Shown: piece after piece, positions 1 through 29,201 of the stretch
Layout: every line of letters starts with the position of its first letter
Position numbering within the stretch: position 1 is the stretch's first letter
NCBI RefSeq assembly: GCF_000698555.1
Contig: NZ_JFHE01000009.1
Span: 1 to 64,000, forward strand
Length of the DNA stretch: 64,000 nucleotides
Direction of reading: 5' to 3'
From: Caballeronia grimmiae
GTDB lineage: Bacteria; Pseudomonadota; Gammaproteobacteria; Burkholderiales; Burkholderiaceae
Made by a program: the position numbers and the translations under genes
The notes under the pieces: generated by a model
What the model saw: only the letters and a program-made list of their open reading frames with translations
Databases searched by the model: none
Told to the model about the DNA's origin: nothing

Positions 1-353
1 CCGAGGTGGAAGCACCAGACGCGGATTGGATTAGGAATAACGACGACCGCCAGCAGGAACAAGAGTTTGACCACTCCGAACACGTGATCAATTTTGAAAT
101 AAATGCAACCCGAATAATGGTGTTGCAGCCAGTAGGCCTCGATCACGATATGGCAGAGAACGAGCGTGAGATATTCGCGCCACTGCTCCGCCATGGCGCT
201 TACCAGGTTGCTGTAGCCAAGCGCGCCCTTGGGAGATCCGGAGACCTTGATCTCGACGATCAGCAGGGTCAACGCGCTTGCGAATACCGCGTCCCTGAAT
301 CCCTCGAAGCGGTCAAGTCCGCGCTCAGCACCATGTGTCTCCGCGTCGGTCGT
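1..353 (-). pseudogene. TMEM175-like (DUF1211) potassium channel, partial, no start codon in frame
   Basis: The minus strand reads an N-terminal TMEM175/DUF1211 sequence: RFEGFRDAVFASALTLLIVE, then a second hydrophobic stretch with WLQHHYSG, then a third membrane segment before the window edge. The FRD motif at the end of the first helix region is the family signature of these bacterial K+ channels. The coding frame is open from position 1 up to a stop at 354-356, but there is no ATG, GTG or TTG ahead of the first membrane helix. An ATG pair at 371-376 lies in another frame, so one inserted or lost base between about 340 and 370 would explain it. It is either a frameshifted gene or a sequencing error. 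The 3' end lies outside the window. Confidence 0.6.
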
Positions 354-716
354 TCACACCTATCACGTAGCATCATGTGAGTCTTTTCATGTTCAGCAAC
401 CCCGGCCAAAACCGGTCATACTAAGCCGACGACAACTCGATGCTTCCGTTGCTTCTTCCCGCGGCAGAACGTAAGGCAGATCGTCCAGCAAACTCCGTGC
501 GTGCCGTGCCGCGAGGAACGACTCCGGCGTGCGCATGCCGCGAAGACAGAGCAGCGTGCGCGGCATGATTTGGATTGCCACAGTCGACAAACGAGACACT
601 GGCGCGGAACTTGTTCTTACTGAAAGCGTGACGCGGCTAGAGCGCGCCACGCATTCGTGAAGAAACCATAAGCGAGTTTGCGTCGATATCTGAAGCGCAC
701 CAACACAGAGGCTGAC
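354..716. other. Intergenic, no confident gene
   Basis: This stretch holds short open frames on both strands, none with a ribosome binding site or a recognisable domain. A minus-strand frame through 393-575 has protein-like composition but also runs through the neighbouring gene in antisense, so I do not call it. Confidence 0.5.
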
Positions 717-2626: not shown

Positions 2627-4429
2627 ATGGACGCAGAAACCAAAAACTTGACTAGCGCACGCAATGCAACCGTCGCGGCAGGAGCATTCCAAAGACCGTT
2701 GGAAGAGTTTCGGTCCTTGTGGGCAACGACGGAAAGGGAACGAGCAGTCGTCGAATTCTCCCCGGACGGCGTCGTCTTGCGTGCCAACGCAAATTTCCTG
2801 GCGCTCATGGGCTTCCGGGCCGATGAGGTCGTCGGTTCACATCACCGCATGTTTTGCGACGCCGCGTACGCCAACAGCGCTGGCTACCAGGACTTCTGGG
2901 TCATGCTCGGGTCCGGTCGCGAGATGAACGGCGATTTTCGACGCATCGGCAAGGCGGGTGGCAAGATCTGGATCAATGGTTCCTACACGCCTGTGATGGA
3001 CGAGAACGGCAACGTGCACAAGATCGTCAAGGTGGCGACCGACATCACGGCCGCGCGCACCGTGGCGGACGATCACGCCGGCAAGGTACGCGCCATCGAC
3101 CGTGCGCAAGCCGTGGTCGAGTTCGACCTGCGTGGACACGTTCTCGCCGCGAACGAACGATTCCTCGAACTCATGGGCTATAGCCTCGAAGAGGCGCAGG
3201 GTCAGCACCATCGGATGTTCTGCGATCCGGCCTACGTCGCGACCGATGCTTACCGTTCCTTTTGGGACAAGCTCGGACGCGGTGAGTATGACGCGGGCCA
3301 GTACAAGCGCGTGGCGAAGCATAACCGGGACGTGTGGATTCAGGCCACGTACAACCCGATCTATAGCTCGGACGGCCGCCTCATCAAGATCGTCAAGTTC
3401 GCAACGGACATCACCGAATTCAAGCGTGGTGTCGCGGAAAGCGACGGCCGACTGGCTGCAATTGATCGCGCCAATGCGGTCATTGAGTTCGATCTCGAGG
3501 GCAATGTCCTCCGGGCGAATCAGAACTTCCTCGACGCCATGGGTTATACGGTGCGCGAAATCGTCGGAAAGCACCATCGGATGTTCTGCGACCCGCAAGA
3601 CGTCGCGACCGCTGACTACCGGGATTTCTGGGCGCGGCTGAGTCGCGGTGACTACAACGCGGGCCGTTACGTGCGCGTATCGAAGCACGGCTACCGCGTG
3701 TGGCTGCAAGCGACCTACAACCCGGTGTTCGACGAGTCCGGCCGCCCGTACAAGATTGTGAAGTATGCAAGCGACATCACTGCCCAGGTGGAACGCGAGC
3801 GGCGCATGCAGGAAAATCTGATCGCAATGAGCGAGAAGATCGAGGAACTCTCGCAGTCGATCGAGGGAATTGCCCAAAACACCCGGGAGGCCACTAGCGT
3901 CGCCACCGAAACGCAGGCCGAAGCGGATACCGGCGAACGTACGCTCGCGGAGTCCATGTCGGCTATTCAAGCGATCGAGCACTCCTCGGCCGGCATCAGC
4001 GACGTGGTGAAGGTCATCAGTGACATCGCGACGCAGACGAACATGCTCGCGTTCAACGCCGCGATCGAGGCTGCCCGCGCGGGCGAGCATGGCTTGGGCT
4101 TCTCCGTGGTCGCAAGCGAGGTGCGCAAATTGGCGGAGCGATGCTCGCAGGCGACCAACGAGATCGGCCGGCTCATCGATGAATCCGTGCAACGGGTCAA
4201 GACGGGCAGCGACACGTCCCGACGCGCAGCTGACGGGTTCCACCGTATCAGAGCCGGTGTGGATCGCACGACCGAAACCATCGCCAGTATTCACCAGGTC
4301 ACTGAAAAGCAAGCAACCGCGACTCGCACTGTCTCGGACCTCCTTCGCGAACTCACGGTCGTGACAGGCGGCGAGGCAGCGACGCGATCCAGTTCCACTG
4401 TCGCGGCGCTCAACAGCCGGTCGCAATAA
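2627..4429 (+). CDS. Soluble methyl-accepting chemotaxis protein with three PAS domains
   Basis: A 600-residue receptor with no membrane segment. Three PAS domains follow one another at about residues 34-145, 156-267 and 278-389. Each carries the same HHRMFCD block and an IVK(V/F/Y)A(T/S)DIT end, so they arose by internal duplication. The signalling hairpin occupies about 400-590, with the tip sequence [20 protein letters not shown] near 470-490, where CheA and CheW dock. The family is Aer-like cytoplasmic receptors that sense redox state or a bound cofactor. The stop overlaps the start of the triple-CheW gene by one base (TAATG), so the two are translationally coupled and probably work together. 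Confidence 0.95.
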   Translation: MDAETKNLTSARNATVAAGAFQRPLEEFRSLWATTERERAVVEFSPDGVVLRANANFLALMGFRADEVVGSHHRMFCDAAYANSAGYQDFWVMLGSGREMNGDFRRIGKAGGKIWINGSYTPVMDENGNVHKIVKVATDITAARTVADDHAGKVRAIDRAQAVVEFDLRGHVLAANERFLELMGYSLEEAQGQHHRMFCDPAYVATDAYRSFWDKLGRGEYDAGQYKRVAKHNRDVWIQATYNPIYSSDGRLIKIVKFATDITEFKRGVAESDGRLAAIDRANAVIEFDLEGNVLRANQNFLDAMGYTVREIVGKHHRMFCDPQDVATADYRDFWARLSRGDYNAGRYVRVSKHGYRVWLQATYNPVFDESGRPYKIVKYASDITAQVERERRMQENLIAMSEKIEELSQSIEGIAQNTREATSVATETQAEADTGERTLAESMSAIQAIEHSSAGISDVVKVISDIATQTNMLAFNAAIEAARAGEHGLGFSVVASEVRKLAERCSQATNEIGRLIDESVQRVKTGSDTSRRAADGFHRIRAGVDRTTETIASIHQVTEKQATATRTVSDLLRELTVVTGGEAATRSSSTVAALNSRSQ

Positions 4430-5886
4430 TGGCGTCCCCCGTATCGGTCCACGGCCTCGTCCGCGTAGGCGCGACCGTATTCGCGCTGCCCGCGGATTGC
4501 ATTGTCGAAGCGGTAGACGCGCCCACGTCCTATCACAAGGTACCCACGCAGCCTTCGGCGATGCGCGGCTACTTCGTCCTGCGTGGCGACGCCATCGCGA
4601 CCCTCGACACCTTTAGCCTGCTGAATCCAAGCGAAGCAGCGAGCGCGTCCGCCAAGCATGTGATCGTGCTTCGCCACGACGACGCGCTCTTCGGCATCGA
4701 AGTCGACGCCATCGGGAATACGGAAACCGTCGACGAACGCGATGTGGTCCGGCTCGAATCGGACTTCGGGGAGGACGGCGGCTTGTTCGCTCAACTCTTT
4801 CCCATGGACGGCGGGCTTTCGCTGATCGGCATTGCCGATGTGAGCAAACTTTATGCAGCGACGCGGGGCATGGCCGCACGCGTGAGACACCGCGCGTTCA
4901 CCGCGGGACACGGCGCGTCTGGATCTGCAGGACGCGCCCGGGATGATGGCTCGGAGCAACAAGCCAGGCAGTACGCGATCGTGCGATGTGCGGAGCACAT
5001 GCTATGCGTGGACGCGCTGAGTGTGAGAACGGTCGTCCCCATGCCAGCGCTGCAACAGCCGACCCCTGGCAACTCGACGTTCCTTGGTGTCGCCCGTTGG
5101 GCAGGTGGCGACCTTGCCGTGATGGACTTTTCGGCGGTACTCGGCTTGCCCGTTTCGGAGCCGTCCGGCGGCAAGTACATGCTCGTCTTTGAGAATGGTG
5201 CGACCCTTGCCGGCTTTGCGGTCGACGAACTATCGGAACTGCTCCTCATCGGGCCCGCTGACATACGGCCTGTATCACCGGTTGCTTTTCGCCACGCGCA
5301 CCTTTTCAGCGGAGCTGTCGTGAGCGAAAAGGGACATACTGCTTTGCTCGTCGATCCTCAGGCCCTCGCGGCGACTGAAGGCCTGATCCGGCTGCCGCGC
5401 CCCGTTCTCGGACATGGTGGACCTGCGTCTAACGAGCTATCTCGAGTTGCCGCGTCGACGTCATTCATCGTGTTCTCGGCTGCCGGTCAACATCTGGCCG
5501 CTAGGACCGCCCAGGTTGCGGAAATAGTATCCAAGCCTCGTATCGAGGTTCGCGGACAGCAAGAGGAGGCCAGCCTCGGCCTTATCAATTGGCGCGATTC
5601 ATTGATTGAACTTGTGCGCATCGGCGTTATTACCGGGTCGGTTGACAGTCCCGAATGGGAGCAAGCCCTTGTAGTCAGTGTCGATGGCCTTACGCTCGCA
5701 TTCGCCATCGATGCCGTGATAACGATGTCAGGGCCGAATGAAGCGACGGAGGTATCTCGCATCGCCGATCATGAAACCGGAACGTGGCGCGAGATCCTGA
5801 CGATGGGAGAGGGGAGGCGTGCCAGCTATCGAATCGTCGACCTGTCACAGCTTGTAGTCAGCCGGTTCGAAACCATAGATAATTAA
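4429..5886 (+). CDS. Triple CheW-domain adaptor protein
   Basis: A 485-residue protein made of three CheW-like domains at about residues 8-150, 178-310 and 345-480. Each shows the CheW core pattern: domain 1 has GYFVLRGDAIATLDTFSLL, domain 2 FLGVARWAGGDLAVMDFSAV, domain 3 SLGLINWRDSLIEL. CheW domains bridge receptors to CheA, so a three-domain version can act as a scaffold linking several receptor tips or kinases. Ordinary CheW has one domain and about 160 residues. It overlaps the receptor gene by one base. A decayed copy of its third domain lies at 1164-1381. Confidence 0.85.
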   Translation: MASPVSVHGLVRVGATVFALPADCIVEAVDAPTSYHKVPTQPSAMRGYFVLRGDAIATLDTFSLLNPSEAASASAKHVIVLRHDDALFGIEVDAIGNTETVDERDVVRLESDFGEDGGLFAQLFPMDGGLSLIGIADVSKLYAATRGMAARVRHRAFTAGHGASGSAGRARDDGSEQQARQYAIVRCAEHMLCVDALSVRTVVPMPALQQPTPGNSTFLGVARWAGGDLAVMDFSAVLGLPVSEPSGGKYMLVFENGATLAGFAVDELSELLLIGPADIRPVSPVAFRHAHLFSGAVVSEKGHTALLVDPQALAATEGLIRLPRPVLGHGGPASNELSRVAASTSFIVFSAAGQHLAARTAQVAEIVSKPRIEVRGQQEEASLGLINWRDSLIELVRIGVITGSVDSPEWEQALVVSVDGLTLAFAIDAVITMSGPNEATEVSRIADHETGTWREILTMGEGRRASYRIVDLSQLVVSRFETIDN

Positions 5887-9081: not shown

Positions 9082-9229
9082 CAGTTAATTTATCGTGGCA
9101 ATTTGCCGCAGCGCATGACGTCATTCGCATCAAGTTGCGACTGCTCCGACTGTGTGTCCTGGCTCACATTCGCTACGCACAGCGGCGGGTTGACCCGTCC
9201 AGAATGGCACCTTGTATATCGTTATCCTA

Positions 9230-16311: not shown

Positions 16312-16888
16312 GGATGGAGTCGGGACCGTTTGTCAGGTGCGTGCATACAAGCGGCTGTTCCGCTCTCATGCAAGCGGGGCGCGACAGGCGGGGACACGAC
16401 GGGGCTTCTGTCGCTCGCCTCGTTCTTGATTGCTGCGTTCTTGCCGCTCGGGCTCACGCGGCAGTGACCAAATTGGCAAGCTATGTATCAGGCATTGAGT
16501 GATGCGGTCATCCTCGATAGGAACTGGCGACAACTTAAGCACGGCAGTCGAAGAGTGTCACGGGGAACGCGGGACGCGTTGTTAGACGCATTGCTGACGT
16601 GACCACTGCGATTTATCCGCTCTACCGCGCGGTTGCCACGCTTCGGCTCCAAGACCAACACAAATCCGGGTATGTGTCGGGACCACCCCGACACGTTGGC
16701 CGAAAAAGGAGCCCTGTCAGACATCGGCCCATCGACGTTTACGTTGATAAACAATAGGTTGTGTTTCGATGTTCGATGGCCCGACCGTTGGCACAGAACA
16801 TGACTAAAGGATACTGAGCGCGGCTTCAACCCGCTCAAACACAGTCCCGGCGCTTGGTGCCACAACTATTCTCGATGGGTGAACCGAA
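16312..16888. other. Intergenic with a perfect hairpin at 16674-16694
   Basis: No confident gene. GTGTCGGG (16674-16681), loop ACCAC, then CCCGACAC (16687-16694) form a perfect eight-base stem. No T-run follows on either strand, so it is more likely a protein-binding site or RNA structure than an intrinsic terminator. Confidence 0.5.
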
Positions 16889-17080
16889 ATGAGCACGCTG
16901 ACCATTGTTGACCTCTGCCAGAAAAACGAACTGTCGCGTACAGAGATGGCCCGCGTAGTCGGCGGGCACGACATAGAGAAGGAGAAGGCGCTCGTTGAGG
17001 CCTATCGTGTTATCGCTTCGATAAACGCTTTAGAAAATGCGCCGGACCCCGCTCCGCCTCATGTGGGCATGAAGCTCTAG
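16889..17080 (+). CDS. Small peptide with a double-glycine leader motif
   Basis: A 63-residue product of unknown function. Residues 15-26 read LSRTEMARVVGG, an exact fit to the double-glycine leader pattern L-S-x-x-E-(L/M)-x-x-(I/V)-x-G-G that is cut by C39-type peptidase/exporters in bacteriocins and other secreted peptides. The 37 residues after GG are charged and helical, lack Cys, and end in a Pro-rich tail (PDPAPPHVGMKL). No exporter or maturation enzyme is present in the window. The coding call rests on the intact frame and the motif. It could instead be a small helical regulatory protein whose VVGG is accidental. Confidence 0.55.
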   Translation: MSTLTIVDLCQKNELSRTEMARVVGGHDIEKEKALVEAYRVIASINALENAPDPAPPHVGMKL

Positions 17081-18152
17081 GCCGACCGGCAGCCGAAGCA
17101 AGTGGCAAGTATGGAGGATTCTGACCTCGGTTGAGGACTAAGAGTGCAGAATTCTCCGGTCGCTGCCGGCCGCATCACGTCGCCTTCTATGCAGCCACGC
17201 TCCCAAAACGATGGTGAAGGCTGGCAACGCTTTCAACGCATAGCACGATGGCAGTGGCCGCGTTGCCGCATGCCCTTTGGAATTAACTGCACTATGCGGC
17301 AAGCCTGTGCTCATAGTAGGCCCGGTCCCTGTCGTCGAGAAGCGCATACAGCGCGGCAAGGTTTGATGCGCCCGGATTCAGCCACGCTTCAATATTTTCG
17401 TCATTCATTGGGACGATACACCGGTCATGTCCCGCAGATTGAACAACAGGCGGCGGCTCGTCGGTTATTGCCGCGAACGACAGCAATTGATGGCGTCGTC
17501 AAGATCGGTGGTCGAGTACTGGTTGATGCTGCTTGTCGTGGCTTTACCACCAACAGTTCGTCGATCTGAGCCTGATGCCGCAAGTTGGCCTAAGGGCGTT
17601 CCGACCCCGCCGAAGCGCTCATGAATTCGCATATATAGGGCGGCGGTCGTCTATGTGAAATAGACCTGTGGCGAGGCACCTTTGACAGCCTTCAATACGT
17701 TCGGAATGCAAAACATTCCTCGCTCGCATAAGTAACAAAAAAGGCGACGCTCAACTGATCAACAGGCGCGTCGACTTTGCGCACCTCAGTTGCGTATTGC
17801 GCCATTGTGCGAGTCCATCGAAGGCGTTGCAACGCGGCGTTTCACGACCAGCGGACGTTGCGACATAAATCACTCCGCACGGTCGCCTTCGGCAGAGATC
17901 GTCGAGCGATTTCTTTCGTGCCTTCGCAGATTCTGTGGCAAGTGACCGCTTCATACGGCTCGACTTCATCCACGACGCGTTATGAAGTCGCCCAAACCCC
18001 TAGGGGATTTCCTTAAAGGATCGCCCGCATCGAGCGCGCGGCGCTTCCCTGACAGGAACTGCCCGATATCGCACCGGACGAGCCCGATATATCGTGCGTG
18101 CCTTGCCGGATGAGACCGGCTATTCAGACGAAAGAACCAACAGGTAACCATC
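17081..18152. other. Largely non-coding stretch with gene remnants
   Basis: Apart from the SRAP-like fragment at 17292-17486, nothing here is supportable as a gene. GGAATG-CAAAA-CATTCC forms a small perfect hairpin at 17703-17719, and CCCCTAGGGG at 17996-18006 is a ten-base palindrome shortly before the chemosensory operon. The last 150 bases presumably hold that operon's promoter, but I see no clear sigma-28 or sigma-54 pattern. Confidence 0.4.
17292..17486 (-). pseudogene. C-terminal fragment of an SRAP (YedK/HMCES-like) gene
   Basis: The frame reads SFAAITDEPPPVVQSAGHDR, then PMNDENIEAWLNP and a C-terminus YYEHRLAA. This is the pattern of the C-terminal half of SOS-response-associated peptidase proteins, which shield abasic sites and have an FA(I/M)-T strand followed by an H-R/D-R-M motif and an AWL segment. 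The N-terminal half with the catalytic Cys2 is absent, and a stop interrupts the frame just upstream. It is a remnant and not expected to be active. Confidence 0.5.
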
Positions 18153-20060
18153 ATGGCACTCATCAGGTCGGGCACTCAAGAAGTCAAAGAGGCTTCCTCC
18201 CATCATTCCCAGACAGTTCAACGCGAAGCAGAGCAGCAGCGCAAGAAAGCGCGCACCCTGGCCAAGCAGCAACAGGCGTCGGAACGAATCGCGGCAGCGA
18301 CCGCGCAGCTGTCGGCAGGCATTACGGAAGCGTCGTCCGCAGCGGAAGAGTTGAAGCGGGCCTCCGATCAGATCGCCAATGGCGCCGAAGAAGCAGCCGG
18401 CGCGGCGCAGCAGTCGCTGACGGCTGTGAGAGAAATGTCGGAAGCGATCACGGTGCAGCGCAACGCCAGTTCCGAAGCACAGACACGCGCCGAGGCGATG
18501 CAGGTGCTCGCCGGCAGTCTGAACAACGAAGTGACGAACATGGTGGCGAACGTAAGCGTAGCCGCCAAGCGGCAGGAAAGTTCCGTCGCGATGGTCGCCG
18601 AACTTGAAAAGCAAGCCGCGAACATTGGCGACATCGTGAAGGCCGTCGCCAGAATCGCCGACCAGACGAACCTGCTCGCGCTGAACGCCGCTATCGAGGC
18701 GGCTCGAGCGGGCAAGCACGGTAAAGGCTTCGCCGTCGTTGCCGACGAAGTCCGCACGCTTGCCGAAACTTCCGAGAAAAGTGCTCGCGAAATCCAGGAC
18801 CTGGTCGGCCGCATTCGGGAAGAAGTGCGCGTCATCTCGGACGGAATCAACGAGTCCGCAAAGACTGTTCAAGGCGAGGTCGAGAAGGGCAAGGACATCG
18901 TGACGCAACTCGATCGCATTCGTACCGATTGCAAGGACGTCGTCGATGGAGCGCGGGAAATCCTGACGGCAGCGGAACAGTCGAACCGCGCATCCGAGGC
19001 CGCGCTTCGCGGCGCTGAATCGATCGCCGCCGCCGCGGAAGAGCAGGCGTCGGCGTGCGAGGAGTCAGGCAAGACGGTGGCTGAGCAAACGCAAGCCCTC
19101 GGTCAATGTGAACAGGCTGCGCAAACGCTGAGCGATCTCGCCGACGAACTGAAGGTCAGCACCGACATCTCGAAGAGCGCGGAAGACGTCGCGTCGTCGG
19201 CAGAGGAACTGTCCTCGGCCGTGCAGGAGATCAACCGCGCCGCATCGCAGATCATGGTCGCGCTGGAGCAGATTCGCGGCGGCGCGCAGACCCAGTCGGT
19301 CGCGACACAGGAGTCCGCTGTTGCCATCGCGCAGATCGAAAGGGCCATGGAAATCGCCGACAACCGCTCGCGTATGGCGCTCGGCAAAGCCACGGCGATC
19401 AAGGAACTGACGGCGGACAACCAGCAAAACGTCGAGGGAATGGCCAAGGGCATCAGCGCATCGGTAGAGGCGACGCGTCGCAGTCTGTCGCAAGTGAAGG
19501 ACCTGGAACAGGTCAGCCGTCGCATCGACAAGATCGTCGACGCCATTACGTCCGTGTCGATCCAGACGAACATGCTTGCCGTCAACGGTTCCATCGAAGC
19601 TGCGCGCGCCGGCGAATTCGGCAAGGGTTTCGTCGTCGTGGCCACCGACATCCGCAACCTCGCCCACGATTCCGCAGAGAACGCGGAGCGAATCAAGGAC
19701 ATGGTGAAGGGCGTGCAGGACCACATCGCCATTGTCGGCCGGGACCTGGGCGAGATCGCGACGGCCGCGCTCGCTGAAGTAGATAAGACGAGGTCGATCA
19801 CGGCCAACCTCGCGACGATGGCCAACGATGTCACCGTGCTGGAGCGCGGGAGCACCGAAACGGCGGCTGCCTCCACGCAGATCGCCGCGGCGATCGTGCA
19901 GATCAAGACGGGCGTCGACCGCATCTCGGGCGCGGCGGAAGAAGCACAGCAAGCCTCTGCACAGGCAGCCGCCGCTGCGCGCCAGCAGTCGCAGGGCGCC
20001 GAAGAGCTTGCTGCCGCGATCGAAGAAATCGCGTCGCTCGCGGACGAGCTCCAGGCATAA
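18153..20060 (+). CDS. Cytoplasmic chemoreceptor with two tandem signalling tips
   Basis: A 635-residue, almost wholly helical protein with no membrane segment and no recognisable sensor domain. It contains two complete receptor signalling tips: [20 protein letters not shown] at about residues 171-190 and QTNMLAVNGSIEAARAGEFG at 471-490, exactly 300 residues apart. Normal receptors have one. The second tip differs at usually fixed positions (AVNGS for ALNAA, ATDIR for ADEVR), so it may dock a different partner or dock more weakly. The first 50 residues are a Gln/Lys-rich coiled coil. It is the first gene of the chemosensory operon, ten bases before the triple-CheW gene. Confidence 0.92.
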   Translation: MALIRSGTQEVKEASSHHSQTVQREAEQQRKKARTLAKQQQASERIAAATAQLSAGITEASSAAEELKRASDQIANGAEEAAGAAQQSLTAVREMSEAITVQRNASSEAQTRAEAMQVLAGSLNNEVTNMVANVSVAAKRQESSVAMVAELEKQAANIGDIVKAVARIADQTNLLALNAAIEAARAGKHGKGFAVVADEVRTLAETSEKSAREIQDLVGRIREEVRVISDGINESAKTVQGEVEKGKDIVTQLDRIRTDCKDVVDGAREILTAAEQSNRASEAALRGAESIAAAAEEQASACEESGKTVAEQTQALGQCEQAAQTLSDLADELKVSTDISKSAEDVASSAEELSSAVQEINRAASQIMVALEQIRGGAQTQSVATQESAVAIAQIERAMEIADNRSRMALGKATAIKELTADNQQNVEGMAKGISASVEATRRSLSQVKDLEQVSRRIDKIVDAITSVSIQTNMLAVNGSIEAARAGEFGKGFVVVATDIRNLAHDSAENAERIKDMVKGVQDHIAIVGRDLGEIATAALAEVDKTRSITANLATMANDVTVLERGSTETAAASTQIAAAIVQIKTGVDRISGAAEEAQQASAQAAAAARQQSQGAEELAAAIEEIASLADELQA

Positions 20061-20069
20061 GGCTGCGAA

Positions 20070-21620
20070 ATGGACCACTTTCATGAAGAGCGGACGGAAG
20101 CCGTGTCGACGGCGGACGTCACGCGTGAAGATCGGCAGTTCGTCACGTTCGTGATCGGCAGCGAGCACTTCGGCGTGGCGATGTCGCCGGTGCAGGAAAT
20201 TATCCGCGTGCCCGACGTGGTGCGCGTGCCGCTCGCCCCTCGCAATCTCGAAGGTCTCGCAAACTTGCGCGGACGCGTGTTGCCGATCGTCAATCTGCGA
20301 AGCGTCTTCGGCATGCAGCCGCGCGAGAACGACGATGCCACCCGCGCCGTCGTCATCAACCTCGGCACGCCGCTGGGTTTCGTTGTCGATCGCGTGGCGA
20401 GCGTCGTCAGCGTCGAAGCGACGCAGATCGAGAGCGCCGACTCCATCTCGTCGACGGTCCGCACGGACTTGCTGACGGGCGTCGTCAATCGCGGCGGCGG
20501 CGAGCCGATGATCCTCGTGCTCGACTTCGAGCGTCTGATCAGCCGCGAGTTCGCGGACGTCGAGCGCCGCCACACGGCCGCGTCGTACACCGAGCACAGC
20601 CCGGCTGCGTACAGCGACGAAGCCGAGACGGATGCAGACGAGCTGCAGATGGTGAGCTTCACGGTCGACGGGCAGGAATACGGCATCGCGATCAGCAGTG
20701 TGCAGGAAATCGTTCAGGTGCCCGAGCGCGTCACGAGCGTGCCTAACGCAAAAGCGCATGTGATCGGCGTCATGTCGCTGCGCAATCGCCTGCTGCCGCT
20801 GGTGAGCCTTCGGCGTTTGTTCTCTCTGCCCGAGCGGTCGCTGAACGACGCGCAGCGGATCGTCGTGGTGTCGACGTCGGTCGGCGACAGACAGGCTTGC
20901 GTCGGAGTCGTGATGGATGCCGTCAACGAAGTGCTGCGCGTGGCCAAGGAAAATGTCGAGCCGGTTCCGTCCGTGCTCGCTCAGGCCGGGAACATGGCGG
21001 AGATCGAGTCGATTTGTCGGCTCGACGACGGGCGCCGGATCGTATCCGTGCTGTCGCCGGAGCGGCTGTTCGACGGCGCGCGCGACGGCGCCGCGCTCGA
21101 CATTGCATTGATGGAGCAAACAGATATGGACGCAAGTGTCGCGAACACAGCCGAACTCGACGACGAAATGCAGATGGTCGTGTTTCGGCTCGCCGACGAG
21201 GAGTACGGCGTGCCGATCGAATCGGTTCAGGAGATCGTTCGCGTGCCAGGCACGCTGACCGCGGTGCCGAAGGCGCCCGCGTTCGTCGAAGGTGTCATCA
21301 ACCTGCGCGGCGCAGTGTTGCCGGTCGTTGACCAGCGCATCCGCTTCGGATTGAAGACGATCGAGAGAAACGACCGTCAGCGCATCATGGTGTTCGTCAT
21401 TGGCGGCGCTCGCACAGGCTTTATCGTCGACTCCGTCGCGGAGGTGCTCAAGGTGCCAACGCGTTACATCGAAGACTCTCCGCGTTTGTCGGATGCGCAA
21501 CGACGGCTCGTCGGACGCGTCGCGAACCTGGAGAAAACGGGCAGACTTATCCAGCTCGTCGATCCCGACCAGTTACTCGATGAGTCCGAGAGCACCATGC
21601 TCGACGCGGTGGCAGCGTAA
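20070..21620 (+). CDS. Triple CheW-domain adaptor of the chemosensory operon
   Basis: A 516-residue protein with three CheW domains at about residues 24-160, 190-325 and 360-500. Each carries the family motifs: FGVAMSPVQEIIRVPDVVRV with LANLRGRVLPIVNLR, YGIAISSVQEIVQVP with VMSLRNRLLPLVSLR, and YGVPIESVQEIVRVP with VINLRGAVLPVVDQR. These closely related repeats point to internal duplication. All three look intact, so the protein could hold several receptor tips or CheA P5 domains at once. It follows the two-tip receptor and precedes cheB, and is a natural match for that receptor's unusual valency. Confidence 0.93.
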   Translation: MDHFHEERTEAVSTADVTREDRQFVTFVIGSEHFGVAMSPVQEIIRVPDVVRVPLAPRNLEGLANLRGRVLPIVNLRSVFGMQPRENDDATRAVVINLGTPLGFVVDRVASVVSVEATQIESADSISSTVRTDLLTGVVNRGGGEPMILVLDFERLISREFADVERRHTAASYTEHSPAAYSDEAETDADELQMVSFTVDGQEYGIAISSVQEIVQVPERVTSVPNAKAHVIGVMSLRNRLLPLVSLRRLFSLPERSLNDAQRIVVVSTSVGDRQACVGVVMDAVNEVLRVAKENVEPVPSVLAQAGNMAEIESICRLDDGRRIVSVLSPERLFDGARDGAALDIALMEQTDMDASVANTAELDDEMQMVVFRLADEEYGVPIESVQEIVRVPGTLTAVPKAPAFVEGVINLRGAVLPVVDQRIRFGLKTIERNDRQRIMVFVIGGARTGFIVDSVAEVLKVPTRYIEDSPRLSDAQRRLVGRVANLEKTGRLIQLVDPDQLLDESESTMLDAVAA

Positions 21621-21632
21621 ACGGGTGGACCG

Positions 21633-22742
21633 ATGCGGGTATTAGTGGTCGACGATTCAGCCCTGATGCGCAAGCACCTTGGTTCGGTGTTGCAAGGCCA
21701 CGAGCTGGCAATGGCGAGAAACGGCCGCGAGGCGCTGGAGCTTGTCGAGACGTTCTGTCCCGACGTGATCACGCTCGATATCAACATGCCTGAGATGGAT
21801 GGGCTCACGACGTTGAGCATGATCATGATCAAGCGGCCTACACCGGTTGTGATGGTGTCGTCCCTGACGGAGCGCGGTGCGCTCGCCACGCTTGAAGCCC
21901 TCAATCTCGGCGCGGTCGACTTCGTTGCGAAGCCAGGCGGCTCGATCTCGGTCAATCTCATCAACGTGGCGGACGAGATTCGCGCGAAGGTGGAAGCGGC
22001 GGGTGCGGCGCGGCTGAGGCGGCGAGGAACCTCCGGCGTCGCGGCACGCCCGAGCGATGCCCCGGCGGCGAGCGTCCGACGCGAGCCGGCGGCCGTGCGA
22101 ACGAGTGTGTCCATCGACTTCGCGGCGCCCGGCGGGCCTTCGCTCGTCCTCGTCGGCGTGTCGACAGGCGGGCCGCGCACGCTCGAAGACGTGCTGCCGA
22201 AGCTGCCCGCTGATTTCGCAGGGGCCGTGATCGTTGCGCAACACATGCCTTCGAACTTCACCGGCCCGCTAGCCGAGCGAATGAACAAGGTCAGCGCCCT
22301 CGATGTCGCGGAGCTTCAGCGTCCGACGCCGCTGAAGCCCGGAACGGTGCTCATTGCGCGCGGCGGTGCGGATGTCGTCGTCTCGCGACGTGGCAAGGAG
22401 CTGTATGCGATTCCCTGCCCAGCGTCGGAACAGCATGCGTGGCATCCGTCGGTCGAGCGTCTCGTTCAAAGCGCGAAAGAATGCTGCAACCCGGAACAGT
22501 TGACCTGTGTGATGTTGACGGGCATGGGCAACGACGGCGCGCAGGCGATGACGGAAGTGAAAGAAGCGGGCGGCCGGACCATCGCGGAGAGCGAGTCGAC
22601 GGCTGTGGTGTTCGGGATGCCGGCAGATCTGATCAGGCGGCGTGGCGCCAGTGTCGTGCTGCCCTCCGATGAGATTGCAGACCAGCTTGTGGGCTGGGTT
22701 GGACAGGTGAAGGAAGAACAAGATGGGTTTGATAAGGCATAA
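21633..22742 (+). CDS. cheB: CheB protein-glutamate methylesterase
   Basis: A 369-residue response-regulator methylesterase that removes methyl groups from receptor glutamates. The receiver domain (1-120) has DD at 7-8, phosphorylation site D49 (TLDINMPEMDG) and K100. The C-terminal esterase has its triad at S177 (GVSTGG), H204 (QHMP) and D301 (GNDGA). Linker length and total size are normal. The 3' end overlaps the HEAT-like gene by 20 bases. With CheR downstream, it gives the operon a full adaptation pair. Confidence 0.97.
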   Translation: MRVLVVDDSALMRKHLGSVLQGHELAMARNGREALELVETFCPDVITLDINMPEMDGLTTLSMIMIKRPTPVVMVSSLTERGALATLEALNLGAVDFVAKPGGSISVNLINVADEIRAKVEAAGAARLRRRGTSGVAARPSDAPAASVRREPAAVRTSVSIDFAAPGGPSLVLVGVSTGGPRTLEDVLPKLPADFAGAVIVAQHMPSNFTGPLAERMNKVSALDVAELQRPTPLKPGTVLIARGGADVVVSRRGKELYAIPCPASEQHAWHPSVERLVQSAKECCNPEQLTCVMLTGMGNDGAQAMTEVKEAGGRTIAESESTAVVFGMPADLIRRRGASVVLPSDEIADQLVGWVGQVKEEQDGFDKA

Positions 22743-23301
22743 CCATGAGGCGCTGCACGTCTCCTCGCCGCAGCCCTGCGACGCGGTGTCCGCAGCGGGT
22801 GCACCGTCGGACGGGACGCAGCTTGCTGCGTCGCTTCTCGACGAGTGGCGTGGCGAGCAGGATGTGAACAAGTGCGAAGCGCTGATTGCAGCCATCGCGG
22901 CGTCGCAGGATGCAGCGAGGACGGACGCATTGATGCGCATCGTCGAAGAAGGCGATGCGGCCTCGCGCAACTTCGCCGTCCTGGCGTGGCAAGGCTTGCC
23001 GGCGCATGAGGTCCTGCGCGGCGCTTCGTTGCTGGAATCGGCCCATGCCGACGCACGCGTGTTGGCGCTGTCCGTGTTGCAGGCTGCGCCGGGCCGCGAC
23101 GTCGAGCCGTTGCTGATCGGACTGTTGTCCACCGAGGCGGACGCCAATGTCTGCGCGGCGGCGGTCGAGCTGGTCGCCGAATGCGGCACGCGTGCTGCGT
23201 CGCCGGCCTTGCTCGCGGCGCGCGAGCGTTTCGCCGGGAACGAGTTTGTCGCGTTTGCGATTGATCAGGCACTGCGGCAGACGGGCGCCGGTAATGAATG
23301 A
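22723..23301 (+). CDS. HEAT-repeat-like protein in the chemosensory operon
   Basis: A 192-residue alpha-helical protein without catalytic motifs. After a low-complexity N-terminus, residues from about 35 on form paired helices of HEAT/PBS-lyase type, with repeating patterns such as LAWQGLPAHEVLRGASLLES, DARVLALSVLQAAP and ANVCAAAVELVAECGTRAAS. Such repeats mediate protein binding. It overlaps cheB by 20 bases and ends at cheR, so it is probably a fixed part of this pathway, perhaps tethering CheB and CheR or the array. Function is not established from sequence. Confidence 0.8.
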   Translation: MGLIRHNHEALHVSSPQPCDAVSAAGAPSDGTQLAASLLDEWRGEQDVNKCEALIAAIAASQDAARTDALMRIVEEGDAASRNFAVLAWQGLPAHEVLRGASLLESAHADARVLALSVLQAAPGRDVEPLLIGLLSTEADANVCAAAVELVAECGTRAASPALLAARERFAGNEFVAFAIDQALRQTGAGNE

Positions 23302-23311
23302 CGGGGCTGCA

Positions 23312-24163
23312 ATGAGTACACCCACGGCAGGCGCGCATATCTCCGGCGATGACTTCCGCAAGTTTCGTGAGTTCTTCTATCGAAGGACAGGCATCTACTT
23401 CGACGACTCGAAGCGGTACTTCGTCGACAAGCGCATTACCGAACGAATGGAACTCACGGGCAGCGACTGCTTTCGCGATTACTTCATGCTTCTTCGCTAC
23501 GAAGCGGATGCGGCGGAAATGCAGGCGCTCGTGAACGTGATGACGGTGAACGAAACGTACTTCATGCGCGAGGACTACCAGTTTCGCTGCATGACGGCTT
23601 CGATGCTGCCGGAGATCGTGAAGACGAATCCGCCCGGAAGACGTCTGCGCATCTGGTCGATGCCGAGTTCGTCCGGTGAAGAGCCGTATTCGATCGCGAT
23701 CCATCTGATCGAGTCGTGGCCGGGGCTGGCAGAGCATGACGTCGAAATCGTGGCGTCGGACATCGACACGCGGATGCTGGAGCATGCACGCGCCGGCATC
23801 TATGGCCGACGCGCGGTGCAGAACCTGTCGCCCGCACTGCTCGAACGCTATTTCACACGCCTGTCGGCGGGCGAGTATCAGGTTTGCCAGTCGTTGCGAG
23901 AAAGCGTCCGCTTCACGCGCGTCAATCTGAACGATCCGCGCGATACAGCGAGCTACAAGGACTTCGACATTGTCTTTTGCCGCAACCTGCTGATCTATTT
24001 CGACGATACGTCGCGGGCGAGCGCCGCGCAGACCATATTTCGTGCGTTGAGACCGGGCGGCTTCATTTGTCTCGGGCATTCCGAGTCGATGGCGCGCATG
24101 TCGACATTATTCACGGTGCGCCGGTTCGCCGACGCAATCGTTTATCAAAGACCGTTGGTGTAG
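23312..24163 (+). CDS. cheR: CheR chemoreceptor methyltransferase
   Basis: About 283 residues. The N-terminal helical CheR domain (FRKFREFFYRRTGIYFDDSK, then YFVDKRITERM) is followed by the SAM-dependent methyltransferase domain with VMTVNETYFMRE, IWSMPSSSGEEPYSIAI, VEIVASDIDTRML and DFDIVFCRNLLIYFDD. It methylates receptor glutamates with S-adenosylmethionine. The usual GCSSGEE motif reads MPSSSGEE here. Two ATG codons are possible (23294 overlaps the previous gene, 23312 does not). GGGG upstream favours 23312. Confidence 0.95.
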   Translation: MSTPTAGAHISGDDFRKFREFFYRRTGIYFDDSKRYFVDKRITERMELTGSDCFRDYFMLLRYEADAAEMQALVNVMTVNETYFMREDYQFRCMTASMLPEIVKTNPPGRRLRIWSMPSSSGEEPYSIAIHLIESWPGLAEHDVEIVASDIDTRMLEHARAGIYGRRAVQNLSPALLERYFTRLSAGEYQVCQSLRESVRFTRVNLNDPRDTASYKDFDIVFCRNLLIYFDDTSRASAAQTIFRALRPGGFICLGHSESMARMSTLFTVRRFADAIVYQRPLV

Positions 24164-24169
24164 CCGAGC

Positions 24170-24550
24170 ATGAAGATTCTAGTTGTAGATGATTCCGCCA
24201 CCGTGCGGATGTTTTACCGGTCCGCGCTAGCAGCGTTTCCGACCGGCATCGACGAAGCGCCGGACGGCGAAAAGGCGCTCGCGATGGCGCTGACGCAGGA
24301 CTACGGGCTGTATATCGTCGATGTCAACATGTCGAACATGGATGGACTGACGTTCGTGCGTGCCTTGCGCGCGCGTCACGACGTGATGCAGTCGCCCGTC
24401 ATCATGATCAGCACTCAGTCGAGAGAGCAGGACGCGACGCTCGCCTGGCAGGCCGGCGCGAACCTATATCTGAAGAAGCCTGTAGCCAAAGAGACGTTGC
24501 AGTACTACGTGAGCGCGATGACCTCGCGCCGTGCAAAGGATGAACAGTGA
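24170..24550 (+). CDS. cheY: CheY-like single-domain response regulator (first copy)
   Basis: A 126-residue receiver domain with no output domain. The acidic pocket is at 7-8 (VVDDSA), the phosphorylated residue is D51 (YIVDVNMSNMDG), the switch residue is in MISTQS, and the lysine is K103 (KKPVAK). It starts six bases after cheR and overlaps the cheA start. It is one of two CheY-like proteins in the operon, so one may carry the output and the other act as a phosphate sink. Confidence 0.93.
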   Translation: MKILVVDDSATVRMFYRSALAAFPTGIDEAPDGEKALAMALTQDYGLYIVDVNMSNMDGLTFVRALRARHDVMQSPVIMISTQSREQDATLAWQAGANLYLKKPVAKETLQYYVSAMTSRRAKDEQ

Positions 24551-26742
24551 GCTCAGTGCTTGAACAATTTATCGCGGAGAGCCGGGAACTGATCGAAGCG
24601 GCCGGCGACCTGCTGCTCGAACTGGAGCGCAATCCAACGGACATGCAGCGCCTCGATGCGCTGTTCCGTGCCGTGCATACGATCAAGGGCAATAGCGGCC
24701 TGTTCGACCTGCCTGCATTCACACGTCTCGTGCACTCGCTCGAAGACCGCCTGGACGCTGCGCGCCAGGGTTCCGCGCTGCTTGGGCGCGAACTGATCGA
24801 CGCGAGCCTGGAAGCGTGCGATCACATGTCGCGGATGATCGACGAAGTGGAGTCGGAAGGGGATATCTCGGCGGACGCGGCCGCCCTAGCGACGGCAATG
24901 CTTACCCGTTTTCGCGACAGTGAAGCAACGAGCCAAGCAGGAGCCATCACACCCGTACCGTACGAGATCGACCGGGAAGATTCGTCCGTCGCCGATACCT
25001 GGCTTGTCACCTACCGGCCGAAAGCCGATGCGTTTTTCTGCGGCGAAGATCCTTTGTATCTCGTGCAGTCCTTGCCGGGGCTTGCACATGTCGAGATGGA
25101 ATGCGTCGGCGAAGAGGCGCTCGGCGATGAATATGACGTCTTCCGGGCAAACGCGGCTTTCAAAGCGCTATGCCACGCGCAGCGCGATGCGCTCGACGAG
25201 TGCTTCCGTTACGTGCCGGATGAAGTGGACCTGCGACGCGTTCCCAGAGTCGATCTCGATGCCGCCGAGCGGCAGCGTCTTTCGACCCTGCTGTGCAGTC
25301 AACGTGAAGCGGCGAAGTTTGCGCAGCCCGGATCGGGCGTTCCCGCGAGCGTCGCGACGGTGCTGACGAATGTCGCCGAACGTTTGCAGGTGCCGGTTCG
25401 CGGCTTTTACGCTGACCGGCCGGCGCATGTACTTCCGCTTATCGAGTTGTTGCTGCTGATCGTGGACGCAAACGGCGAACAGCAGAAACGCGCGGGCACG
25501 CCGGCGCCGTCCACGCTTGCCAGAACTCCGACCACTGACACGTCGGCGGCGCGAGCGGAGAACCGCTATCTGAAGATCGACCGCGCACGCGTGGATCGTC
25601 TGATGGAACTGATCGGCGAGATGATCGTCGCCAAGAACGGCTTGCCGTATGTGGCTCGCCGCGTGGAAGCGGGCGGCACGCCGCGCGACCTGGCGCGCGA
25701 GGTCATGCATCAATATGCGTCCGTCAGCCGGATCGCGGACGAGATGCAGGACGCCGTGATGCGCATGCGGATGATTCCATTCTCGAGCGCACTCCAACGG
25801 TTCCCACGGCTCGTGCGCGACATCGCGTTGCGGCTCGGCAAGGAGGTGGAACTCGTCATCAAGGGCGAAGAGACGGAAGCCGACAAGACGATCATCGAAG
25901 GCATCGGCGATCCGCTGCTGCACATCGTGCGCAATAGTCTCGATCACGGCTTCGAGTTGCCGCAGGAACGCGTGGACGCCGGTAAGGCTCGTCGTGGCAC
26001 GCTGACCATCGACGCGCATCAGGAAGGCGACAAGGTGGTGGTCGTCGTGACCGACGACGGCAAAGGCATCGATACGGCGCGTGTTCTCGCAAAGGCCGTC
26101 GAGAAGGGCCTGGTGAGTCCGGCAGATGCGGAGTCCATGAGCCATCGGGATGCGCTGCAGATCATCTTCCGCCCCGGGTTTTCGACGGCGGAACAGGTTT
26201 CCGACTTGTCCGGCCGCGGCGTGGGCATGGACGTCGTGATGCGCTCCATCGAACAGTTACGCGGGACCGTCGATATCGACAGTACGCCGGGCGAGGGCAC
26301 GGTCATCCGCATTGCGCTGCCGCTCAGCATCGCCGTGAGTCACGTCATGGTCACACGCTGTGCCGGCCAACTCTACGGCATACCGATGGATACGGTGGTG
26401 GAAACCGTGCGCATTGCGCAAAGCGACATTCAACGCATTCGCGAGCATCGTGCGGCCGTGCTGCGCGGGCGCATCGTGCCGCTCTTCGATCTGGCTTCGG
26501 TGCTGCAGATCGACGACCGGCCGCGAGCCGGCGCCGCAACCGAAGAGGCGGAGCTGACGGCATTGATCGTGCGGACGCGCAACGGCATCGCCGGGCTGGT
26601 GGTGGATGGTTTCGAAGGTTCGATGGACGTCATCCTCAAACCGATGGACGGCGTGCTCGCTTCGCTGCGCGGCTACGCGGGCACCGCTTTGCTCGGCAAT
26701 GGCGCCGTTCTGCTAATCATGAATCTCGAGGATCTTTTCTAA
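24547..26742 (+). CDS. cheA: CheA sensor histidine kinase
   Basis: A 731-residue kinase. The P1 Hpt domain carries H44 (RAVHTIKGNSG). A regulator-binding-like region lies near 165-235 (WLVTYRPKADAFF, GEDPLYLVQSLPGL). Next come the dimerisation helices (YLKIDRARVDRLMELIGEM), the ATPase domain with N box HIVRNSLDHGFE, G1 DDGKGID and G2 GRGVGMDVV, and the CheW-like P5 domain (LYGIPMDTVVETVRI). All catalytic boxes are intact. The GTG start overlaps the first cheY by four bases. It phosphorylates CheB and the two CheY-like proteins. Confidence 0.97.
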   Translation: MSSVLEQFIAESRELIEAAGDLLLELERNPTDMQRLDALFRAVHTIKGNSGLFDLPAFTRLVHSLEDRLDAARQGSALLGRELIDASLEACDHMSRMIDEVESEGDISADAAALATAMLTRFRDSEATSQAGAITPVPYEIDREDSSVADTWLVTYRPKADAFFCGEDPLYLVQSLPGLAHVEMECVGEEALGDEYDVFRANAAFKALCHAQRDALDECFRYVPDEVDLRRVPRVDLDAAERQRLSTLLCSQREAAKFAQPGSGVPASVATVLTNVAERLQVPVRGFYADRPAHVLPLIELLLLIVDANGEQQKRAGTPAPSTLARTPTTDTSAARAENRYLKIDRARVDRLMELIGEMIVAKNGLPYVARRVEAGGTPRDLAREVMHQYASVSRIADEMQDAVMRMRMIPFSSALQRFPRLVRDIALRLGKEVELVIKGEETEADKTIIEGIGDPLLHIVRNSLDHGFELPQERVDAGKARRGTLTIDAHQEGDKVVVVVTDDGKGIDTARVLAKAVEKGLVSPADAESMSHRDALQIIFRPGFSTAEQVSDLSGRGVGMDVVMRSIEQLRGTVDIDSTPGEGTVIRIALPLSIAVSHVMVTRCAGQLYGIPMDTVVETVRIAQSDIQRIREHRAAVLRGRIVPLFDLASVLQIDDRPRAGAATEEAELTALIVRTRNGIAGLVVDGFEGSMDVILKPMDGVLASLRGYAGTALLGNGAVLLIMNLEDLF

Positions 26743-27005
26743 TGGCGCTGATTTTTGAAGCCGACCGCGTGACGTTCGATGGCCATTGCGCGATCGACGA
26801 AGCGGAGGCGCTGCTCGCGTGGGTGCGGGATGCCGATACGCGCGGCCTGCATCCGCTGTTCGACTTGTCGAAATCCACGCATGTCCACACTGCGCTCGTG
26901 CAGCTCGTCATGCGTGCTACCGGCCGGGTATCGACTCCCGAGACGGGATTGCTATCACTTTGTCTGCGCAGCGTTCAGGCGCGCGGATCAATCGAAGGGA
27001 AATGA
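26742..27005 (+). CDS. Small STAS-like protein of the chemosensory operon
   Basis: An 87-residue protein starting at TAATG, overlapping the cheA stop by one base. The pattern FEADRVTFDGHCAIDEAEAL, then LHPLFDLSKSTHVHTALVQL matches the strand-helix layout of STAS/MlaB-like domains: an acidic strand, then a D-(L/x)-S segment where anti-sigma antagonists carry a phosphorylatable Ser. Here DLSKSTHVHTA is the candidate region. STAS proteins switch partners by binding other proteins. In this operon it could be an extra output or assembly factor. Confidence 0.7.
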   Translation: MALIFEADRVTFDGHCAIDEAEALLAWVRDADTRGLHPLFDLSKSTHVHTALVQLVMRATGRVSTPETGLLSLCLRSVQARGSIEGK

Positions 27006-27007
27006 AG

Positions 27008-27379
27008 ATGAAGAAAATACTGCTTGTCGACGATTCGGCAACGATGCTGTTGAGCTTGCGCCAGACGCTGGAAATGTCCGGCTTCAACGTCAGCACCGCG
27101 ACGGACGGCGAGAATGGTCTCTCCGTGCTCGCGGCCGGCAGCAAGCCGGATCTGATCATCACCGATATCAACATGCCGAAACTGGACGGCCTCGGCTTCA
27201 TTCAGGCCGTACGCAAGCAGCCGGCGTACCGGTTCACGCCGCTGCTCGTTCTGACTACGGAATCGCAGCAGGCGCGGCGTGACGAAGCGAAGCGGCTCGG
27301 CGCAACCGGCTGGCTCGTCAAACCCGTGGCGGCGGCGGATCTCGTGCGCGTCGTCAAACAAGTCGTTCCGGGTGCATGA
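27008..27379 (+). CDS. cheY: CheY-like response regulator (second copy)
   Basis: A 123-residue receiver domain with DD at 8-9 (LLVDDSATM), phosphorylation site D53 ([12 protein letters not shown]), switch Thr in VLTTES and K105 (WLVKPVAA). Two ATG codons, 27002 and 27008, are available. AAGGGA lies at proper spacing only for 27008. It is closer to classical CheY (TES and VKP) than the first copy, so it is the better candidate for the diffusible output. It ends one base before the last receptor-like gene. Confidence 0.93.
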
Positions 27380-27380
27380 C

Positions 27381-28445
27381 ATGTGGCTCATCGGCAATGG
27401 ACACGCCCTGCGGACCAGGGCGGCGGATTCTCTGGAGCGGCTTGCCAAAGCGCTTCGTGACGGTGCGCCGTCGTCGCTGCATCAGGAGCTCGACAGTTTC
27501 GAGAAAGTGTCGGCGATTCTTTGCGGCCAGCTCGAAACGGTCACGCGTCAGTCGGAAGATGCCGCGAATTGCATCGCTACGCGAATGAGCGAGATAACGC
27601 GGCATGCATCCAATGTCGCGACGGCCACGGAATCGTCGGCCACGCGTTCGCGCCACCTGTGCGAATCAGGGCAGGACACGTTACGGGAAAGCGACGAGTC
27701 GCTGGAGCAGCTGCTCACGATCTGCAAGGAGCGAAAGCAACAAGGCGAAGCGGACCGCGTGCGCGCGGCCACGGTCGCGACCAACGCCGGAGCACTGAGG
27801 CCGCTCGTGCAGGACATTGCCACGATCGCGCGGCAAACTAACCTCGTCGCACTCAACGCGGCGATCGAGGCGGCACGTGCGGGGAAGGTCGGCGCAGGCT
27901 TCTCGGTGGTGGCACGCGAGGTGCGACAGCTGGCGGCGCAGACCGCCGCGGTCGCCGAGACCGTAGGCGAACGAATCAACACGCTCGTCAGGACGATCGA
28001 GCGCGAACTCGTGCACGAACTGAATGCACGCGACCATGAACACGAGTGCAGGGAGCTGGACCGCGTGGCAGAGTTGCTCGGGGCATTGAAGGGACATTAC
28101 GTGATGTCGACAGCCGCGCTTGCCGAGTTGACGGAAAACGTCGAAGGGAGCTCGGGCCGCATGCGTGAGGAGATCTGCGAAACGCTGTCGGCGCTGCAGT
28201 TTCAGGACATTACCCGGCAGCGCATAGAACAGGTGACGGTCGAACTCGCGCATATGTCGCAATTTGCGCAGTCGTTGCAGAGCACGCTGCGCGGTGAGGA
28301 CGAGCAGCCGGCCGTTTCCATCGCCGAGCGTCTCCGAACGCTCGATGGGCGCTATGTCATGTCGGACCAGTTGCGCGTGCATCGCGAAGTGCTCGGCAAG
28401 CAGGAAGAGGGCGAAACGGCCGGCGCCGCTATCGAGCTCTTCTAG
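27381..28445 (+). CDS. Receptor-like protein fused to a CheZ-type phosphatase motif
   Basis: A 354-residue soluble helical protein. It has a receptor tip ([20 protein letters not shown], about residues 150-169, then [15 protein letters not shown]) but no sensor or membrane segment. In the C-terminal third, residues 273-280 read QFQDITRQ. CheZ has DFQDLTGQ, where the Asp and Gln (D143 and Q147 in E. coli) dephosphorylate CheY. D276 and Q280 match these. No separate cheZ is present in the operon. The protein may bind CheA through its tip and act on the neighbouring CheY. Phosphatase activity is inference. Confidence 0.85.
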
Positions 28446-28484: not shown

Positions 28485-29201
28485 TCAGGCGGCGATGAGC
28501 TGGTTCTTGACCGCATACAGGGTGAGCCCGGCGACATCGCGAATGCCGAGCCGCTGCATCAGCTGCAGACGATGAGTTTCAATCGTCTTGACGCTCAGCT
28601 CCAGTGACCATGCGATCTCCTTGGTGGACTGCCCTTGCGCGATCATTGTCAGGATCTGCAATTGCCGAGGCGTCAGTTCGGCGACAGGCCGGGCGGACCG
28701 TGTTGGCACGATCGGCTCGGGCGGCCGCGGGACGAGCCGGTCCGACAAGTCGACGCTCTCGCCTTGCGCGAGCATCTGAGTAACAACCATTCCAGAGATG
28801 GCCGGACTGAGATACGACTGTCCCAGCATCACTGCGCGCAGCGCAATCTCGAGCTCGACGGCTGCTGCGTCCTTGACGAGATAACCATTGGCGCCTGCTT
28901 TGAGCGCACTCAGCACGAAGTCCGGCGTTGCGTGCATCGAAAGCACGACCTTTCTCACATCGCTTTTGCGCTCGCGCAACTGCAACAGCAGGTCCAGACC
29001 GCTTTTTCCCGGAAGCGAGATGTCGGTGACTAGCATGGCCGGCGCGTGCTCGTCGATGAGCGTCAGTGCCTCTTCGGCCGTGCCTGTTTCAGCCACCACC
29101 GCAAAGCCGTCGATTTCGTCGATGAGCGCGCGAATGCCCGCGCGAATAAGCTGATGGTCGTCGACGAGCATGACCTTCACCACAATATGCTTTTTGCTCA
29201 T
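28485..29201 (-). CDS. NarL/FixJ-type response regulator
   Basis: A 238-residue regulator. The receiver domain has VMLVDDHQLIRAGIRALI, the phosphorylated Asp in MLVTDISLPGKSG and lysine in GYLVKDAAA. A linker rich in Pro and Arg leads to the LuxR-type helix-turn-helix (LTPRQLQILTMIAQGQSTKE, then LSVKTIETHRLQLMQRLGI). It overlaps the kinase gene upstream by one base (TAATG), so the pair forms a two-component system. It is convergent with the chemosensory operon and may be independent of it. Confidence 0.95.
   Translation of the reverse strand: MSKKHIVVKVMLVDDHQLIRAGIRALIDEIDGFAVVAETGTAEEALTLIDEHAPAMLVTDISLPGKSGLDLLLQLRERKSDVRKVVLSMHATPDFVLSALKAGANGYLVKDAAAVELEIALRAVMLGQSYLSPAISGMVVTQMLAQGESVDLSDRLVPRPPEPIVPTRSARPVAELTPRQLQILTMIAQGQSTKEIAWSLELSVKTIETHRLQLMQRLGIRDVAGLTLYAVKNQLIAA

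Follow-up and report, generated by a model that had tools for sequence, protein, structure and literature searches.

DosM is the name, reportedly introduced in a paper of 2016, of a chemoreceptor that combines two signalling domains in one chain. The pair dosM and cheW3 is the signature of chemotaxis class F9, represented in Vibrio cholerae by DosM (VC1403), CheW3 (VC1402) and the kinase CheA (VC1397), and the V. cholerae F9 proteins are described as building cytoplasmic arrays that are flat and have two baseplates (PMC7534058 and PMC9321776, available text). These cytoplasmic baseplates lie 35 nm apart according to the accessible parts of PMC3964821 and PMC7184735. The census in the available part of PMC9321776 puts the number of F9 clusters at 64 full and 8 partial among 2781 species, with a sporadic distribution consistent with horizontal transfer, and reports that 98% of DosM proteins have no domains besides the two for signalling. 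Little is understood of F9 arrays, and the accessible sections of the reviews call their function unknown.

Gene organization of the cluster

The window, a stretch of 64,000 nucleotides from Caballeronia grimmiae, encodes a receptor with the traits of F9: tandem MCP signalling domains with no sensor or membrane domain found, an adjacent triple CheW, and a cluster of CheA, CheB, CheR and CheY genes in the order seen in Vibrio (L123-L125). Because of this signature pair and the Vibrio-matching gene order, the protein is filed here as a new DosM of class F9. The features of the locus are collected in Table 1.

Table 1. Features of the DosM locus and of the candidate input receptor in the window
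Feature	Coordinates	Strand	Basis
Soluble receptor with three PAS domains and one tip (PAS3), candidate sensory partner	2627..4429	+	Pfam, tip comparison
CheW3b, second, divergent triple CheW	4429..5886	+	CheW domain matches
DosM-like receptor, 635 aa, two MCP signalling hairpins	18153..20060	+	ORF, Pfam, 20 homologues
Tip 1, 20 residues (letters not shown), residues 171-190	18663..18722	+	Sequence; MCPsignal E 1e-34
Predicted inter-hairpin loop (1/2), residues 334-338	19152..19166	+	AlphaFold2, alignment; STD or Gly-rich in many homologues
Tip 2, QTNMLAVNGSIEAARAGEFG, residues 471-490, with M474, V477 and G479; D499 and I500 just beyond	19563..19622	+	Sequence; MCPsignal E 1.5e-27
CheW3, three CheW domains (20136-20549, 20646-21074, 21171-21587)	20070..21620	+	Pfam
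CheB methylesterase with receiver	21633..22742	+	Pfam
HEAT-repeat-like protein, 192 aa	22723..23301	+	HEAT_2 23.8 bits, under 27.7 cut-off
CheR methyltransferase, approximate start	23297..24163	+	Pfam
Single-domain response regulator	24170..24550	+	Pfam
CheA kinase, 731 aa (Hpt, dimerisation, ATPase, CheW-like)	24547..26742	+	Pfam
CheY-like response regulator	27002..27379	+	Pfam
MCPz, 354 aa, one MCP tip; QFQDITRQ 28197-28220; C-terminal ELF 28434-28442	27381..28445	+	Pfam, motif, profile comparison

The nine genes between 18153 and 28445 lie on the same strand and overlap or are separated by a few bases, save for about 260 bases ahead of cheY, and they therefore probably form one operon. The same order of nine genes is found in all three Vibrio-genus stretches (L123-L125, from the genus of V. 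anguillarum). CheW3 adjoins DosM in 19 of the 20 homologous stretches, the contig of L025 ending at this point, and in L034 it is split into two frames. The HEAT-like gene between cheB and cheR has a similar counterpart in 12 of the 16 other F9 stretches extending as far as cheR, and is absent at the threshold used from L020, L029, L032 and L034. Directly beyond the che operon, on the minus strand, are a MEDS-PAS histidine kinase and a NarL-type regulator (28485-31261). The roughly 1.8 kb on the 5' side of DosM (16312-18152) have no gene assigned and no Rfam match, and Rfam at gathering scores gave no match anywhere in the window.

Domain architecture of the DosM-like receptor

The sole Pfam family found in the 635-residue frame at E <= 0.01 is MCPsignal, which matches in two stretches (206 bits, E 4e-61); no sensor or further Pfam domain accompanies it. 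Scored singly in the genome, the two stretches reach E 1e-34 (tip 1) and 1.5e-27 (tip 2), so neither tip is due to chance. No membrane-like segment is present, the highest Kyte-Doolittle mean over 19 residues being 1.16. The original prediction had described a chain with signalling tips at residues 171 and 471, exactly 300 apart, with neither sensor nor membrane domain and with a triple CheW encoded next to it, and each of these points was recovered, both tips standing in one open frame and the neighbouring gene encoding three CheW stretches. Its premise that one receptor chain normally has one tip is generally right, but two-tip receptors are already a published class. An assembly error merging two receptor genes, for which nothing was found to speak, can for practical purposes be dismissed, as 20 further genomes each yielded a homologue built in the same way, with two tips.

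When the chain is compared with itself, offset 300 stands out with 90 identities in 306 positions, the runner-up by score being offset 293 with 58 in 313. Because of this self-similarity, the chain is interpreted as a tandem duplication of one hairpin. Glu/Gln pairs are present in both hairpins, which fits control by CheR and CheB.

Tip spacing and the signature of the second tip

The distance between the glutamates of the two tips is 300 residues in 19 of the 20 mapped homologues, which share 36-64% identity and include near-duplicates; the three Vibrio-genus copies (L123-L125) are among those with this spacing. The exception is L034, at 8896-11130 of a Denitrovibrio MAG stretch, in which 402 residues separate the tips and a CZB (chemoreceptor zinc-binding) domain is inserted between them (E 4e-14).

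Conservation at the tips was read from alignment A2, which comprises 19 rows including the window copy and excludes L115, which has an inserted domain, and L121, whose identity to L120 is 95%. At tip 2, M474, V477, G479, D499 and I500 are invariant in 19 of 19 rows, and L115 and L121, outside the alignment, also retain the five residues. The equivalent residues of tip 1 are L (17/19), L (19/19), A (19/19), E (13/19) and V (19/19). For comparison, the other receptor tips of the genome were selected by HMM: 31 MCP (PF00015) matches were obtained, 27 of them outside the window, and all 27 were read, giving 26 tips and one contig-end fragment. In all 26 readable tips F precedes QTN, which we take to be the tip type of enteric membrane receptors, and none of the 26 resembles tip 2. 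An alternative control of 81 distinct tips from at least 594 stretches, mostly from single-tip receptors, is biased, having been seeded on canonical tip peptides, and the comparison is therefore based on the tips selected by HMM.

As the signature of tip 2 is invariant in the homologues and absent from the 26 other tips of the genome, tip 2 is a conserved special tip. That it is instead a decayed, non-functional repeat, leaving DosM an ordinary receptor with one working tip, is very improbable: it does depart from the canonical tip at sites where the 26 other tips of the genome are fixed or nearly so, but these departures are invariant in 19/19 rows, are kept in L115 and L121, and go together with a fixed spacing. 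With five residues of its own in every row, tip 2 looks specialised, as had been predicted, rather than decayed, and specialisation for a partner is a reasonable interpretation. The two tips would then not be interchangeable, the conservation being what is observed and the difference in role what we infer from it.

Distribution and phylogeny

Searches for DosM gave matches in 2 of 58 genomes from the same genus as the window (E <= 1e-60) and in 9 of 398 from its phylum (E <= 1e-70), the genome of the window being counted in both. In the genus of V. anguillarum it was found in 3 of 227 genomes among the best five candidates scored in each, and a search of 196 genomes, again confined to the best five or six candidates per genome, gave the same three.

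In the tree of 19 DosM proteins, which has three long branches in other parts, the window copy groups with a copy from an Acidobacteriaceae MAG (support 95/98, 64% identity). L010, from the same genus as the window, and L016, from the same family, cluster with Bradyrhizobium (100/99). A single bacterial family thus holds two distant lineages of DosM, the kin being acidobacterial in the one case and Bradyrhizobium in the other. This pattern fits separate horizontal acquisitions of DosM, such as the available text of PMC9321776 infers for the class.

Predicted fold and topology

The AlphaFold2 model of the monomer, built on 19 rows, has a pLDDT of 90.2 and a pTM of 0.65, with helices at 18-185, 187-333 and 339-634 and a loop at 334-338, where the homologues are STD-like or rich in glycine. 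The arms on either side of the loop are similar in length (182-333 and 339-482). The Thermotoga receptor 2ch7 can be superposed on residues 334-635, with 302 residues matched at 3.1 A and 24% identity. Matches to four-helix bundles span both tips, talin R4 aligning with 138 of its 138 residues over model positions 145..521 and 3dby with 126 residues over 157..517, and the alignment of a one-hairpin Tsr chain (8c5v_I) extends across 43..613, although helical bundles yield many middling structural matches. Long Foldseek matches to integrative receptor models, at rmsd values of 48 to 124 A, carry little information. Since the four-helix-bundle matches require helices from both hairpins to lie next to each other, the chain appears folded back in the model, and the ranges of these matches suggest a single four-helix bundle that has the two tips together at one end.

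An alpha-helix rises 0.15 nm per residue. A straight helical rod of 300 residues would be about 45 nm long, as against the published 35 nm between baseplates. The rod of double length predicted from the sequence is accordingly not supported as the necessary form of this chain, given both the folded-back monomer and a length exceeding the gap. There are three ways to account for this: a shorter distance between the tips in V. cholerae DosM, a tilt of the rods, or a chain that does something other than simply bridge the two layers.

The last of these possibilities can be put as a single-chain pseudo-dimer, in which DosM folds back at 334-338 into an obligate heterotypic unit with both tips at one end. 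The unlike tips would share the work, one perhaps being the inner, trimer-forming tip and the other the outer tip binding CheA and CheW, and the array would be a sandwich since opposing receptors overlap mid-way, with no chain spanning it. The folded-back model with its talin R4 and 3dby matches, the near-equal arms, the invariant differences between the tips and the mismatch of 45 and 35 nm all speak for such an arrangement, and receptors are reported to form sandwiches in other cases, with spacings of 31 nm for E. coli Tar fragments and 27-30 nm for R. sphaeroides receptors in the accessible parts of the sources. Against it, the available text of the review PMC7534058 presents V. cholerae DosM as an extended rod with a tip at each end, seen by cryo-tomography, with a homology model fitted into the sub-tomogram average, and a prediction made for one chain is blind to its partner and may pack exposed faces of the helices against each other. 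Since the prediction lacks that partner chain, the fold-back leaves the published rod standing, and we regard the pseudo-dimer as unlikely. If true, it would explain why the tip signature is invariant, why the arms are equal and why the sandwich measures 35 nm, and the model of the F9 array would need revision. The model suggests in any case that the folding of DosM is less settled than the literature implies. The mismatch between a helical length of about 45 nm and the reported 35 nm makes the question of baseplate spanning testable, and the conserved spacing and asymmetric conserved tips offer simple handles on whether DosM spans two baseplates.

A receptor with a CheZ-like motif at the end of the cluster

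MCPz, the last product of the operon, has one tip followed by QFQDITRQ and a C-terminal ELF, and in all seven MCPz copies read beside an F9 cheY the motif FQD[IV].RQ and ELF are kept. It is found in 7 of 21 stretches (window included), some of the others ending too early, and is absent from L020, L024, L026, L027, L029, L031, L032 and L034, which pass cheA or cover the cluster. As only 7 of the 21 stretches carry it, F9 clusters are not all alike, and MCPz often accompanies F9 without defining it.

The motif recalls that of CheZ: [FY][QH]D[LI][TS]GQ was present in all 19 CheZ frames read, in 14 of them as FQD...Q and in five as YQD or FHD, these frames having been picked by a profile that was itself built from motif-picked rows. 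We take the DxxxQ motif to be of the CheZ catalytic type. Profile comparison of MCPz with CheZ gave a probability of 66 (E 5.5e-5), against 0.9 (E 0.06) for the DosM control. The NCBIfam CheZ model matched MCPz at E 5.7e-5, far under the cut-off of the model, and the Pfam CheZ score of 13.8 bits is under the curated 30.7.

A search with MCPz found matches in 75 of 398 genomes at E <= 1e-30, and the best 30 loci were read, yielding 24 distinct receptor frames. Among these, 17 carry QF[QE]DxxxQ at 119-121 residues past the tip. All 17 end in [FL]F, as against none of the seven frames without the motif and none of the controls (0/81 and 0/8), and in 12 of the 17 the short flanks include a CheY-like gene (>= 90 bits). 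The combination of QF[QE]DxxxQ and the [FL]F end is common to the F9 MCPz and to McpA-like receptors; besides the window, it occurs at L019, L022, L023, L123-L125, L132, L134-L136, L138, L139, L141, L143, L146, L148, L149, L151 and L156. In several motif-bearing receptors the last residues are ITFF or VTFF, and by tail and neighbours these resemble F7 McpA. Six such loci were taken with wider flanks: five lie inside che clusters and L227 lies outside, and the CheZ of the window genome found no match in any of the six stretches. The available text of PMC7184735 describes the conserved C-terminus of McpA as important yet of unclear role, places cheZ only in F6 systems at stages 1-2 of F7, and states that at stage 3 mcpA is lost and an F6 cheY/cheZ pair is thought to have been recruited.

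The MCPz of the window has no membrane-like segments, and the four homologues checked have them. Its AlphaFold2 model (seven rows) is weak, with a pLDDT of 72 and a pTM of 0.43, and places the CheZ-like motif inside a helix at 31-303, the last 17 residues being unstructured. From motif, tail and profile similarity, we lean slightly towards MCPz and the McpA-like proteins being candidate receptor-borne CheY phosphatases. No description of a receptor-borne CheY phosphatase of this type was found in the literature searched, in which few subscription journals were covered. If true, such an activity would explain the conserved tail of McpA and how signals are ended in clusters without a CheZ of their own.

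Candidate receptors for signal input

Since no sensor was found in DosM, signals must enter through other receptors. The 31 PF00015 matches in the genome are made up of the 26 F-type tips and the contig-end fragment outside the window, the two DosM tips, MCPz and the PAS3 receptor; as the remaining matches are F-type, fragmentary or already part of the cluster, the PAS3 receptor is probably the first candidate for input. Its tip is unlike the 26 tips read outside the window, and the receptor is soluble. The PAS3 gene and that of CheW3b meet end to start (2627-5886). A PAS receptor paired with a triple CheW was matched in 3 of 398 genomes, including that of the window, and such a pair is present at L202 and L203, in genomes G410 and G412, which gave no DosM match in the search of the phylum. 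Input to the DosM array would probably come from the PAS3 receptor and MCPz, and PAS-PAS receptors of V. cholerae have been proposed for the same role.

Comparison with known systems

Our preferred interpretation, to which we assign a probability of roughly two in three, is that the window protein is the DosM of a complete F9 cluster, a tandem hairpin fusion belonging to an array in which one tip is placed in each baseplate. DosM would have arisen by tandem fusion of two soluble receptor hairpins of about 300 residues. By analogy with the work on V. cholerae, its dimers would assemble with CheW3 and CheA into a cytoplasmic array that has two CheA/CheW baseplates, every chain giving one tip to each plate and thereby tying the layers together, and CheR and CheB would presumably act on the Glu/Gln pairs of both hairpins. 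The proposal that a tandem receptor with a triple CheW cross-links two baseplates agrees with what the available review text reports for V. cholerae DosM/CheW3 (PMC7534058) and may hold here by the same analogy. The idea is not new, because the architecture is the published DosM/CheW3 signature of F9; what is added here is the fixed spacing of 300, the invariant residues of tip 2 and the acidobacterial grouping of the window copy.

With cluster I/F9 of V. cholerae, as described in the available part of PMC7534058, the locus shares the tandem MCP signalling domains, the lack of a sensor and the adjoining triple CheW. It differs in its host and in the PAS3 receptor and second CheW3 12 kb upstream, the likeness to VC1403 being drawn from the published description. 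With F9 clusters at large (PMC9321776, accessible text) it shares the dosM and cheW3 signature, its class being taken here from that signature and gene order, not from CheA phylogeny. The soluble receptors of Thermotoga maritima (2ch7, 3g67) have one hairpin, and the second half of DosM matches a whole one. Engineered single-chain Tsr (PMC4692393, in which natural cases are also mentioned) likewise carries two receptor units per chain, but its basic constructs repeat one receptor, whereas the two tips of DosM differ in conserved ways.
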